Source: a virus
Virus record (IMG/VR): IMGVR_UViG_3300024346_000022
Location: 1 to 64,000 of that record
DNA length: 64,000 nucleotides
Reading direction: 5' to 3' (one strand)
The notes under the pieces were generated by a model. That model had not been told where the DNA came from. It was given only the letters and a program-made list of their open reading frames with translations, and searched no databases. The position numbers and the translations under genes were made by a program. Positions 4,211-63,544 of this stretch are shown piece by piece. Positions within the stretch are counted from its first letter, which is position 1. Each line of letters starts with the position of its first letter.

Positions 4211-4861
4211 TCAGGTAGTATTTTTTCTTTTATTTTTATGATAATTCTCCCGCCTTCTTGCTCTTTCATTTTCAATATTTAAAAGATATTTTTCTCTTTT
4301 TTCTTCCCTCAATCTTTCTATATTTCGTTGATAATATGCTTTTGAGGATTCATTTTGCTTCACACGTTTTTCTTCATCACTCATACCCGTTCCAGCATTC
4401 CATTGCCTGCGACCATTTGCAAATTCATTTTTTAATCTCTCACTTATCTTTTTTTTACTTTCATCACTGAATTTTTGCGCTCCCTTCTTTCCTTTATTCC
4501 AAGGTTCCCTACCTTTAACCTTTTCTTTTATTTTTTCTTTTGTTTCTTCACTACATACAATTCCTTTATTCCAAGGAACAATGCCCGTAGTGTCAAACTT
4601 TGATGAAGTTTGTTTTGATTTATTTGTAAAGTGCTTATTATGGGAAACATTATAAAAATTATGAAGTATGACTTCATCGGTTATCGCATCTTCCCGACTA
4701 CGATAATCATCCTTTATTATAATTTTTAAAGAAGGATTAAATGATTTATCGGCATATGACCCAAAATATTTAATATCTTCTTCGGGCAAACATTTACAAC
4801 TTCTACTACCAATATACCCACGACCCCAAGGTTCATATGAGTAATATGTGTAATGATACAT
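4211..4861 (-). CDS. GIY-YIG homing endonuclease with NUMOD3 repeats
   Basis: 216 residues. The N-terminal catalytic domain has YYSYE at 6-10 and GYIGSR at 15-20, the GIY-YIG signature with its catalytic Arg, and a Glu near residue 63. Two or three NUMOD3 DNA-binding repeats follow (PWNKG, SEETKEKIKEKVKG, PWNKGKKG at about 96-127; a degenerate one at 150-165) and then a highly basic tail. It is a paralogue of the gene at 37455-38105, which is also 216 residues and begins the same way, so I chose the ATG at 4861 over the TTG at 4918. A TATAAATA late promoter 24 bases upstream supports this. Confidence 0.88.
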   Translation of the reverse strand: MYHYTYYSYEPWGRGYIGSRSCKCLPEEDIKYFGSYADKSFNPSLKIIIKDDYRSREDAITDEVILHNFYNVSHNKHFTNKSKQTSSKFDTTGIVPWNKGIVCSEETKEKIKEKVKGREPWNKGKKGAQKFSDESKKKISERLKNEFANGRRQWNAGTGMSDEEKRVKQNESSKAYYQRNIERLREEKREKYLLNIENERARRRENYHKNKRKNTT

Positions 4862-13868: not shown

Positions 13869-14172
13869 AAGATAAATCCTGTGGTATAAACTCATAATCC
13901 TCATCAGGAAGGTCTTGGGGATTTTCTAAATCCATCTCAAAGAGTAGTGGATGTGCTTCTTCGTCGATTAAGTAGAATGATTTTTGATAGAATATTTCTG
14001 GCGTATAAGTGAGTTGTAGTTCTGCTTTTTCAATTATTTCCGGATCATTTTGAGCGATTGCTGACAACTCATCGAAGGTAAAAGGAATACTATTGATGTG
14101 ATATGTTTTTATAATGAATGTGTCCTCTGGAGTCTTATACAAATTATAAGAATGTGTTATTTTATAAGACAT
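13864..14172 (-). CDS. hypothetical protein, 102 aa
   Basis: An acidic soluble protein. The first half (SYKITHSYNLYKTPEDTFI and DELSAIAQNDPEIIEKAE) mixes strand and helix, and the C-terminus is Asp/Glu/Pro-rich (DLENPQDLPDEDYEFIPQD). No family recognised. It lies immediately downstream of the tRNA cluster and upstream of the giant fibre gene. A late-type AATAAATA (14194-14201) precedes it, so it may be a virion or assembly protein, which is inference. Confidence 0.65.
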   Translation of the reverse strand: MSYKITHSYNLYKTPEDTFIIKTYHINSIPFTFDELSAIAQNDPEIIEKAELQLTYTPEIFYQKSFYLIDEEAHPLLFEMDLENPQDLPDEDYEFIPQDLSS

Positions 14173-14193
14173 TTTGATATTATCGATATCTTA

Positions 14194-14201
14194 TATTTAT
14201 T
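14194..14201 (-). promoter_or_regulatory. late promoter element AATAAATA
   Basis: NATAAATA-type element 21 bases before the ATG at 14172, between the tRNA cluster and the 102-residue gene. Confidence 0.45.
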
Positions 14202-14265
14202 TTTACTTACAAACTCTACCTTTTTTATATTCTTCTGGTATTATGTTTTCTTCTTTCTTTATAAA

Positions 14266-14561
14266 TGTCGATAGACGGCCTCGAACCGACAAGGGCTGTG
14301 CCCGACAGATTTTCGTCACACTATAGTTTTCACTACCAAACCATAAGATTTGTTTGTGCGCTGGACTTTCTCTTTTCCATATCCATAATGGATTTAGGAA
14401 CCACCTATTAAGTCTCTACACCTTCATCTTGCGATGCTTGGCTCGGGATTGCCATTTTAAAGGTTTCCCCGAATTTAAGTGGATTCACACATAGAGTTTC
14501 CTACTATGGTGCTCAATTAACGCAAAAGTCTGTTGTGTTTACCAAATTTCACCATATCGAC
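14266..14561 (-). tRNA. tRNA-Leu(UAA), interrupted by a group I intron
   Basis: The 5' exon is 14526-14561 and the 3' exon 14266-14313, 84 nt after splicing. Acceptor arms GTCGATA and TATCGAC pair fully, with discriminator A. The anticodon stem ACAGA/TCTGT closes the loop CTTAAAA, giving anticodon UAA. The variable arm GGGC-ACA-GCCC is the long arm expected of tRNA-Leu. The T-loop is TTCGAGG, with one U-U mismatch in the T stem. CCA is not encoded. The intron sits after the first anticodon base, the same site as in cyanobacterial and plastid tRNA-Leu(UAA). Confidence 0.93.
14314..14525 (-). ncRNA. group I intron (IC3-like) in tRNA-Leu
   Basis: 212 nt, ending in G as group I introns do. Conserved core elements in order: the internal guide TTGAGC, whose GAG pairs with exon CUU to form P1 with a terminal U-G; GGGGAAACC; the Q element GGCAATCCCGAGCCAAGC; the R element AGGTGTAGAGACTTAATA; and the S element AAGAGAAAGTCC, with P7 pairing AGACT to AGTCC. 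These match what I recall of the Anabaena tRNA-Leu intron (about 249 nt), but this copy is shorter. No endonuclease frame lies inside it. It is expected to self-splice. Confidence 0.92.
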
Positions 14562-14566
14562 AATAA

Positions 14567-14597
14567 GACTATTATAACTCAAAGAGTCCTAATAGTC
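14567..14597 (-). other. inter-tRNA stem-loop
   Basis: Perfect 8-bp inverted repeat GACTATTA/TAATAGTC with a second inner pairing ACTC/GAGT, between tRNA-Met and tRNA-Leu. No T-run follows on the minus strand, so an RNA-processing signal is more likely than a terminator. Confidence 0.6.
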
Positions 14598-14600
14598 AAT

Positions 14601-14674
14601 TGCTCGCCGTGGGAATCTAACCCACCTTCGGAAAATTATGAGTTTTCTGCATTCAAACAGATTGCTAGACGAGC
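14601..14674 (-). tRNA. tRNA with anticodon CAU (Met or Ile2)
   Basis: 74 nt without CCA. Acceptor arms GCTCGTC/GGCGAGC pair (one G-U), the D stem is GCA/TGC, the anticodon stem GAAAA/TTTTC closes CTCATAA, and the T stem GTGGG/CCCAC closes TTAGATT. The 1:72 pair is G-C and the anticodon stem lacks the three G-C pairs of initiators, so it is elongator Met or a lysidine-type Ile. The usual D-loop GG and C56 are altered (GTTT and TTAG), which would replace the 19-56 G-C contact by U-A. Confidence 0.85.
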
Positions 14675-14676
14675 AT

Positions 14677-14697
14677 AAAACTCCACATAAAGTGGAA
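14677..14697 (-). other. inter-tRNA stem-loop with T-run
   Basis: Minus-strand TTCCAC, loop TTTAT, GTGGAG, then TTTT. A weak terminator or processing hairpin between the UAU tRNA-like gene and tRNA-Met. Confidence 0.5.
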
Positions 14698-14785
14698 TAC
14701 GAGTGGATGGTTACGATCCATCTCAAAGGCCCTGATCTGGGGCAAAGAATTTATAAGATTCCCCTGACTACCAAGTCTCACTCGC
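14698..14785 (-). tRNA. class II tRNA-like gene, anticodon reads UAU
   Basis: 88 nt. Acceptor GCGAGTG/CACTCGT pairs with a terminal G-U, followed by A. The D arm is short (GAC, loop TTGGTA, GTC). GGGGAAT/ATTCTTT closes the loop CTTATAA, giving UAU (Ile, AUA). A long variable arm GCCC/GGGC follows, and the T arm is GATGG, loop ATCGTAA, CCATC. A long variable arm is normal only for Leu, Ser and Tyr tRNAs, so identity is uncertain. The T-loop departs from TTCRA. It could be a decaying or non-canonical tRNA. Confidence 0.55.
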
Positions 14786-14786
14786 A

Positions 14787-14810
14787 TAAAAAGTTGCCTT
14801 GAAGCAACTT
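14787..14810 (-). terminator. hairpin terminator upstream of tRNA cluster
   Basis: Minus-strand AAGTTGC (14804-14810), loop, GCAACTT (14791-14797), running into TTTTTAT. It could end transcripts of the antitoxin gene or mark a tRNA processing boundary. Confidence 0.6.
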
Positions 14811-14834
14811 ATAAGACTCATAGGTTGCCTTGAC

Positions 14835-15017
14835 TCAACAACCTTCTTCGTGGTCGGTGTGTATTCGTATAAGGTCGTCTTCTTCCTCATACTCACCATA
14901 AGGAATTAACATAGCATCTCCGTTTTCGCTTTTAATCAAGAAGGACTCACCATTCTCTACTCTTTCTAGTAGATTATCAAAATCTTCTTGAAATTCTTCT
15001 ACCGTAAACATTTCCAT
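14835..15017 (-). CDS. Phd/YefM-like antitoxin-fold protein
   Basis: 60 residues. MFTVEEFQEDFDNLLERVENGESFLI followed by KSENGDAMLIPYGEY is the N-terminal layout of Phd/YefM antitoxins (helix, beta hairpin), which bind operator DNA and neutralise a partner toxin. The C-terminus is short and acidic. No toxin gene is adjacent: upstream is a 61-residue protein and downstream the tRNA cluster. It may act as a stand-alone decoy antitoxin or repressor. An ATG two codons in is an alternative start. Confidence 0.65.
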   Translation of the reverse strand: MEMFTVEEFQEDFDNLLERVENGESFLIKSENGDAMLIPYGEYEEEDDLIRIHTDHEEGC

Positions 15018-37429: not shown

Positions 37430-37458
37430 ATTATAGAAGATTTATAAAGGGATGTCAA
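37430..37458 (-). promoter_or_regulatory. consensus sigma70 promoter of gp32
   Basis: TTGACA (37453-37458), 17 bases, TATAAT (37430-37435) on the minus strand. The TGA stop of the upstream homing endonuclease is within the -35 box. TATAAATC also occurs in the spacer. Confidence 0.88.
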
Positions 37459-38105
37459 GCCCTCGTCCAACCTTTATGGTGATTTCTTTTACCACAAATT
37501 ACATGATGCATAGCTGAATCGGTGAGATTATTTTGTTCGCAAAAATATTTGAGATTATTTGCGGTATGTATTTTTCCTTCCGGATCTTTCATTACCCAAG
37601 TTTTATTATCTCTTGCTACTTTTCTTTCTCGTATTTGCTCCCTTTGCTCTTCTGTAAGTTTTTTGCCAAGCATTCCTTTTGGAGATATTCTTCCCATATG
37701 TGATTTACTCATTTTTCTTTTGGTTTCTTCAGATGCTTTTCTATTTTTAGCAGAATCTGATATTTTCTTTCTAACTTCTGGTCTTTTTGCTGGGTTATTT
37801 TCGCCAATCATATTTTCACTTGGAGTAATATAATAAAACTTTTTAGAAGTTTGCCTTGCTTTGTTGGCAAAATGAGGATTTTTATCTACTTCATAAAAGT
37901 CGTGAAGAACACATTCTGCCTCAAGTGCATCTTCTACGCTATCAAAAGTTTCTAAAATGATTTTTTGAGTTGGTTTAAAAGTTTTGTCTCTAAAACTTCC
38001 AAAATAATTTATATCTTCTTCTGGAAGACATTTACATTCTCTTTTTCCAATATATCCATTACCAAACTCTTCATAAGAGTAATAGACATAAAAATACTTT
38101 TTCAT
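37455..38105 (-). CDS. GIY-YIG homing endonuclease with NUMOD3 repeats, second copy
   Basis: 216 residues. YVYYSYE near residues 6-12 and GYIGKR at 17-22 form the GIY-YIG core, and LPEEDINYFGS and ARQTSKKFYY are shared with the gene at 4211. NUMOD3 units are in RPEVRKKISDSAKNRKASEETKRKMSKSHMGRISPKGMLGKKLTEEQREQI, and the C-terminus (KYFCEQNNLTDSAMHHVICGKRNHHKGW) looks like a small DNA-binding helix-turn-helix. Lies between the DUF1825 gene and gp32, a typical insertion spot in T4-like phages. Confidence 0.9.
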   Translation of the reverse strand: MKKYFYVYYSYEEFGNGYIGKRECKCLPEEDINYFGSFRDKTFKPTQKIILETFDSVEDALEAECVLHDFYEVDKNPHFANKARQTSKKFYYITPSENMIGENNPAKRPEVRKKISDSAKNRKASEETKRKMSKSHMGRISPKGMLGKKLTEEQREQIRERKVARDNKTWVMKDPEGKIHTANNLKYFCEQNNLTDSAMHHVICGKRNHHKGWTRA

Positions 38106-63334: not shown

Positions 63335-63544
63335 TTAGTTCTTATAAAGGTCTTCTAATCTTTCTTTGGTGAGGTCAACATATAAAAGTTCATCACCTTC
63401 TTTTGGTGCCTCTGGGTGTTGAGGTTTTCTTGGAGTTCTCATTTCTTTATTGATGGATTGGATGTTTCCCCACATCATCGCAAAGGCACCTCCGGCGATG
63501 ACTGCGAAGAATGTGAAGTAGATGAAGATTAGAAAGGGGTTCAT
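63335..63544 (-). CDS. small membrane protein, 69 aa
   Basis: MNPFLIFIYFTFFAVIAGGAF is a transmembrane helix, followed by a Pro/Lys/Glu-rich cytoplasmic part (RTPRKPQHPEAPKEGDELLYVD). Similar small proteins are usual in cyanophages. The ATG at 63544 overlaps the homing-endonuclease stop by 4 bases; the frame extends only to a TTG at 63562. Confidence 0.72.
   Translation of the reverse strand: MNPFLIFIYFTFFAVIAGGAFAMMWGNIQSINKEMRTPRKPQHPEAPKEGDELLYVDLTKERLEDLYKN

Follow-up and report, generated by a model that had tools for sequence, protein, structure and literature searches.

The window analysed here is a stretch of 64,000 nucleotides, positions 1 to 64,000 of the IMG/VR virus record IMGVR_UViG_3300024346_000022. 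On its minus strand, from 14561 to 14266, lies a tRNA-Leu(UAA) gene whose anticodon is interrupted by a 212-nt insert that we assign to the group I introns. The features of the locus, in window positions and with the helices as predicted, are as follows:

14526–14561, minus strand: 5′ exon of tRNA-Leu(UAA), 36 nt, 3′ end ...ACAGACUU; the joined exons are called tRNA-Leu(taa) by ARAGORN
14314–14525, minus strand: the 212-nt IC3-like group I intron, inserted between positions 34 and 35 of the anticodon and ending in G; RF00028 at 53.3 bits plus covariation
14266–14313, minus strand: 3′ exon of tRNA-Leu(UAA), 48 nt, with class II variable arm, CCA not encoded; ARAGORN on the joined exons
14512–14514, minus strand: internal guide GAG, forming P1 with exon CUU (14528–14526), with U·G at the 5′ splice site; unchanged in each of the 26 viral relatives
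14476–14482, minus strand: 5′ strand of P3, CCACUUA, partner 14407–14401; changes on both sides in five of seven pairs
14468–14473, minus strand: 5′ strand of P4, UUCGGG, partner 14447–14442; a covarying G-C/U-A pair
14410–14414, minus strand: 5′ strand of P7, GACUU, partner 14368–14364, the guanosine-site helix; 100% paired, double changes in three pairs
14356–14360, minus strand: 5′ strand of P9, CGCAC, partner 14321–14317; two compensatory changes seen in this virus only
14600–14675, minus strand: neighbouring tRNA-Met(CAU), uninterrupted; ARAGORN, and RF00005 at 47.2 bits
14697–14786, minus strand: neighbouring tRNA-like gene of class II, anticodon UAU; ARAGORN at relaxed threshold, homologs in S-SRM01 and S-SKS1

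The intron was recognized by a permissive Rfam scan of 13900–15000, in which RF00028 (Intron_gpI) matched 14535–14341 with 53.3 bits and an E value of 1.8e-12, just above the curated gathering score of 50 bits; the same match was recovered in a search of the full 96.7-kb virus record. A default Rfam scan of the entire window did not detect the intron, and default ARAGORN on the window did not call the interrupted tRNA, reporting tRNA-Met alone in its neighbourhood. That standard tRNA and Rfam scans passed over this gene offers a reason why viral tRNA counts are too low. When the exons are joined, ARAGORN returns an 84-nt class II tRNA-Leu(taa) in which the variable arm is long and the acceptor, D and anticodon stems are intact. 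The sole stem defect is a U-U mismatch in the T-stem, within the 3′ exon, which could weaken the tRNA; the T-loop contains G60. L073 and L232, two further assemblies of this virus, match the locus base for base, which excludes an assembly error as the source of the interrupted gene.

An earlier note, made from the letters of this stretch, had described a T4-like cyanophage whose tRNA-Leu(UAA) is interrupted by a group I intron in the classical position within the anticodon. The Rfam model and the site bear this out, and the exon/intron boundaries given there are exact to the base. The final G, the pairing of exon CUU with GAG and the order of the core elements, for which we find P3, P4, P6, P7, P8 and P9 in sequence order, likewise agree with that description. 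The tRNA had also been called complete, which stands as far as the ARAGORN call and the long variable arm are concerned and has to be qualified for the T-stem.

The fold was assessed by aligning 26 non-redundant viral relatives, placing helices P1–P9 of the window intron on the alignment and counting pairs. Standard pairs occupy 94.5% of the pair cells, against 27–41% when the partner strand is slid by 1–3 columns and 75% in shuffles; because the structure was derived from the window sequence, the slid control somewhat favours it, whereas the double-sided changes, found in 41 of 63 pairs, are free of that bias. In P7 the swaps among the 26 relatives are U-A/A-U and C-G/G-C. The innermost pair of P3, A-U in the window intron, forms in only two of the 26 relatives. 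The private changes in P9 convert A-U to C-G and C-G to G-U (alignment columns 203/247 and 204/246). By itself, the minimum-energy fold of the intron stands out only a little (z −2.2), which is what a pseudoknotted ribozyme would be expected to show. Covariation thus backs the catalytic core of P3, P4, P6, P7 and P8, and the U at position −1 paired with G in P1, together with G as the final intron base, is what group I introns possess. The subgroup call was made by reading the alignment by eye: P5 is short (two pairs) and lacks P5abc, P7.1 and P7.2 are absent, and GAAA loops, of the GNRA type, cap P2 and P9b on the P2 and P9 arms. Judged from these features, the intron is a group I, IC3-like intron that is predicted to be self-splicing.

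The named phages closest to the virus are the Synechococcus phages S-SRM01 (freshwater) and S-SKS1 (marine). The tRNA cluster is syntenic with theirs, both holding a class II UAU tRNA, a tRNA-Met and an intronless tRNA-Leu(UAA) at the same place; however, their tRNA-Leu(UAA) is built on a class I scaffold, whereas that of the window is class II. Among intronless tRNAs, the one closest to the window exons is a tRNA-Leu(taa) from Pelagibacter phage Mosig, with 88% identity along 68 nt that include the insertion point. Phage tRNAs are usually explained as serving codons that an AT-rich phage uses often, and UUA, at 20.4 per 1000 codons in the window ORFs, ranks second among the leucine codons. 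As to the rest of the cluster, the long variable arm is odd for an apparent tRNA-Ile such as the gene at 14697–14786 (minus strand), and upstream of the cluster a 60-aa ORF at 14835–15017 (minus strand) has a sub-threshold Phd/YefM antitoxin match and similar DNA in S-SRM01.

Introns at this site were sampled by core-motif and splice-site pattern scans of IMG/VR and one such scan of bacterial genomes, and a case was accepted when its 3′ splice site was located and the spliced tRNA had a UAA anticodon. At least 109 viral tRNA-Leu(UAA) introns (including that of the window and two fragments of the same virus) and at least 111 bacterial ones were verified, both numbers being lower bounds; as the scans also used a pattern built from the intron family itself, counts and proportions fall short of a census. 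Unannotated tRNA-Leu introns were found in two GenBank huge-phage lineages, LR756501/LR756503 (205 nt) and LR756511 (700 nt, with an HNH gene). The earlier note treated such an intron as not known from a T4-like phage; the open-access literature indeed holds no report that we found, but unannotated cases are common in viral contigs and occur in GenBank phages. Its suggestion that the intron had been shortened by selection for compactness fares worse, as among the matches listed the viral lengths cluster at 197–202 nt, slightly below the 212 nt of the window intron, with a bacterial median of 242 nt. ARAGORN labels of tRNA-Tyr(ata) or tRNA-Phe(gaa) for some interrupted Leu genes were rejected as boundary errors, the splice-site search yielding tRNA-Leu(taa). 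A class I scaffold with a short variable arm was seen in several viral tRNA-Leu(UAA) genes (L006 3764–3836, L011 2801–2877, L160, L175 and L205), and a spliced length below 80 nt in 28 of 100 short-intron viral cases vs. one of 111 bacterial cases, among the matches listed.

Among the matches listed, the intron closest to that of the window lies on a cyanophage contig (L175), whose nrd genes match T4-like cyanophages, and is 88–89% identical (core 97%). A second viral relative (L205) is 79–81% identical; megablast of L205 against phages gave no match, and PHROGs identified T4-like tail genes on it. The core of the window intron also shares 90% identity with the introns found in viral tRNA-Arg(UCU) genes, more than with most viral Leu introns, and the histories of intron and exons do not match. 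On the cellular side, again among the matches listed, cyanobacterial introns come no closer than 55% (core 63%) and bacterial introns of any kind no closer than 63% overall; the best core match, at 81%, comes from an alphaproteobacterial MAG. In a maximum-likelihood tree, the window intron falls in a clade (SH-aLRT 96) made up of 62 viral introns and a single bacterial one on a long branch, and the 21 sampled cyanobacterial introns form one separate, fully supported clade on a long branch. With its best identity of 55% and its place outside that clade, the window intron appears not to belong to the sampled cyanobacterial tRNA-Leu intron lineage. Adding other viral tRNA introns gave a viral-only clade of 61 Leu, nine Arg and one Ala introns (SH-aLRT 90), and in unconstrained trees the viral clade lies beside Pseudomonadota introns, not cyanobacteria. 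When the window and cyanobacterial introns were forced together, the AU test returned p = 0.22, or 0.31 with L175 and L205 included, over some 205–210 usable columns; because the alignment is this short, the forced grouping is left standing.

The host group of the virus is likely the alpha-cyanobacteria, which include Synechococcus and Prochlorococcus and are marked by CsoS2. Of 244 genomes examined from the cyanobacterial phylum, 23 were CsoS2-positive, and none of these 23 contained the intron pattern or an RF00028 match above cut-off. As a positive control, RF00028 scored above cut-off in eight of eight intron-bearing genomes.

Evidence on movement comes from comparing introns with the tRNAs that hold them. 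Of 693 viral intron pairs more than 93% identical, which are not independent of one another, 215 sit in tRNAs less than 65% identical. Such pairs often combine a class I tRNA with a class II tRNA, with near-identical introns in scaffolds about 52% identical. Because near-identical viral introns thus occupy unrelated tRNA scaffolds, we infer that the intron moves between genes. The viral tRNA-Arg(UCU) introns are inserted after the same anticodon-loop CUU. Anticodon-loop introns of tRNA-Arg, most often UCU, were noted in putative viral contigs L016, L050, L054, L065, L072, L099, L105, L125 and L129, and further anticodon-loop group I introns in putative viral contigs were those of tRNA-Lys (L034, L090), tRNA-Thr (L027, L052), tRNA-Ala (L048), tRNA-Gln (L059, L075) and tRNA-Asn (L068).

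Family members of 670–860 nt encode an endonuclease, which is an HNH protein or, in L190, a LAGLIDADG protein, and one viral HNH protein is 59% identical to one from a gammaproteobacterium. The window intron, whose 212 nt leave no room for an endonuclease gene, is not a homing intron with an endonuclease of its own, and no relative of the family's HNH was found across the 96.7-kb fragment that makes up the virus record. The lack of an intron endonuclease, with GIY-YIG genes elsewhere in the window, had been correctly noted before. These free-standing GIY-YIG/NUMOD3 endonuclease-like genes lie at window positions 4211–4861 and 37455–38105, and a further one at 63541–64251 of the virus record, directly downstream of psbA (all on the minus strand). 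The intron fits a mobile family as an endonuclease-less member.

Other RNA elements were seen in the same searches. Just past the window end, psbA (66418–64407 of the virus record, minus strand; locus L012) consists of five exons and four ORF-less group I introns of 232, 209, 254 and 237 nt (RF00028, 55.7–93.9 bits). Its exons, one of only 19 nt, join to a 359-aa D1 protein collinear with solved D1 proteins. A PhotoRC-II RNA motif (44.0 bits, above cut-off) lies upstream at L012 5959–6048 (minus strand), about 66458–66547 of the record. Elsewhere, psbA holds two annotated introns in S-CBWM1, three unannotated matches in S-SRM01 (one below the Rfam cut-off) and one intron in S-PM2. In the 735-kb phage LR756501, a group I intron of 96.1 bits (L364 1122–1694) adjoins a tmRNA match below threshold; this may be a huge-phage tmRNA split by an intron. 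The capsid region of the marine podovirus KT997847 holds two group I introns (L009 1944–2124 and 2653–2833) with a core close to that of the tRNA introns, the first matching at 90% over 67 bp.

Taken together, the locus is very probably a phage tRNA-Leu(UAA) gene with an endonuclease-less IC3-like intron that was drawn from a mobile pool circulating among viruses and not recently acquired from the cyanobacterial host. The intron transcript would fold and bind guanosine in P7; the precursor would be cut after U34 of exon CUU, held by the guide GAG; and U34 would be ligated to A35, giving a mature tRNA for UUA, which is among the leucine codons used often by this AT-rich phage. The source of the intron would be mobile introns circulating among viruses, which enter the anticodon loop after the CUU of tRNA-Leu(UAA) or tRNA-Arg(UCU).

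The earlier note had instead read the shared site as pointing to a recent transfer, of the intron or of the whole interrupted gene, from cyanobacterial host to phage. The site and the broad intron class are indeed shared with cyanobacterial tRNA-Leu(UAA) introns, and the virus is a cyanophage with psbA. However, the nearest introns are viral (88–97% vs. 55%, core 63%, for the best cyanobacterial one, among the matches listed), the sampled cyanobacterial introns form their own long-branched clade with the window intron outside it, and group I introns above cut-off were found in 0 of 23 alpha-cyanobacterial genomes against eight of eight controls. The identities, the trees and the host search contradict the recency of such a transfer, which we consider scarcely credible, and the AU test leaves room for a deeper cyanobacterial link. 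An ancient entry of a cyanobacterial tRNA-Leu intron into viruses, followed by diversification, would agree with p values of 0.22–0.31 on a short alignment and with the many cyanophages among the carriers. It is unlikely, though not negligibly so, given that the viral clade lies beside Pseudomonadota introns in free trees, that the best cellular match listed is alphaproteobacterial (core 81%), and that HNH genes are common to the family and gammaproteobacteria.

Movement might also have come about solely by recombination in flanking tRNA DNA or by exchange of the whole locus, as tRNA clusters recombine readily and the anticodon arm offers a short shared stretch. The occurrence of near-identical introns in class I and class II scaffolds about 52% identical, and in both tRNA-Leu and tRNA-Arg, together with the endonucleases encoded by family members, reduces this account to a low but appreciable probability. 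A gene in decay, with the tRNA past function or the intron past splicing, would explain the T-stem U-U mismatch, G60 in the T-loop and a score below those of the other four group I introns of the virus record. Yet the catalytic helices are all intact, the private P9 changes are compensatory, the acceptor, D and anticodon stems are preserved, and the sequence is identical in three assemblies, all of which makes decay very unlikely. Beyond the virus-circulating intron that we prefer for this locus, a wider picture can be drawn tentatively, at somewhat less than even probability: viruses may keep a lineage of small tRNA introns that hops from one tRNA gene to another, with Leu-UAA, Arg-UCU and possibly further genes as targets and the anticodon-loop CUU as the sole guide; most copies would lack an endonuclease and might move by reverse splicing or by endonucleases acting in trans, and viruses would serve as a reservoir that both feeds and is fed by bacterial tRNA introns.

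Among group I introns, that of tRNA-Leu(UAA) is the textbook case of an "ancient" one, and inheritance versus movement is an old question for such introns. The virus-dominated clade described here crosses tRNA scaffolds and the tRNA-Leu/tRNA-Arg divide and includes endonuclease-bearing members, and the more than 100 viral records with tRNA-Leu introns at the classical site provide a natural system for testing tRNA intron mobility. If the wider picture is true, viruses feed, and are fed by, bacterial tRNA introns long held to be ancient and mostly vertical. A 2014 review placed all phage introns then known in protein genes, despite the many phage tRNA genes (PMC3984707), and in the open-access literature we found no account of a phage tRNA gene with a group I intron.

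The group IC3 intron of cyanobacterial and plastid tRNA-Leu(UAA) (Kuhsel 1990, Xu 1990 and Paquin 1997, as cited in PMC3984707) resembles that of the window in tRNA, site after U34, similar size and core motifs. It differs in sequence (55%, core 63%) and in its separate clade, the window intron being virus-borne and related to tRNA-Arg(UCU) introns. Proteobacterial tRNA-Leu(UAA) introns, such as those of Rhodospirillaceae TMED23 (L356) and Rhodoferax (L264), share the site and are nearer in sequence than the cyanobacterial ones, with identities of at most 63% overall and 81% in the core; however, they are cellular and lie outside the viral clade, and the sampled bacterial introns as a whole have a median of 242 nt. 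The introns of LR756501/LR756503 and LR756511 share tRNA and site, that of LR756501 (205 nt) being 76% identical over 150 nt, but their carriers are huge phages and the LR756511 copy is a 700-nt intron with an HNH gene. Finally, the introns of phage protein genes (T4 td and nrd; psbA of S-PM2 and S-CBWM1) are phage-borne and of the same self-splicing class, often with free-standing endonucleases, whereas they interrupt protein genes and, unlike the window intron, belong to another sequence subfamily.
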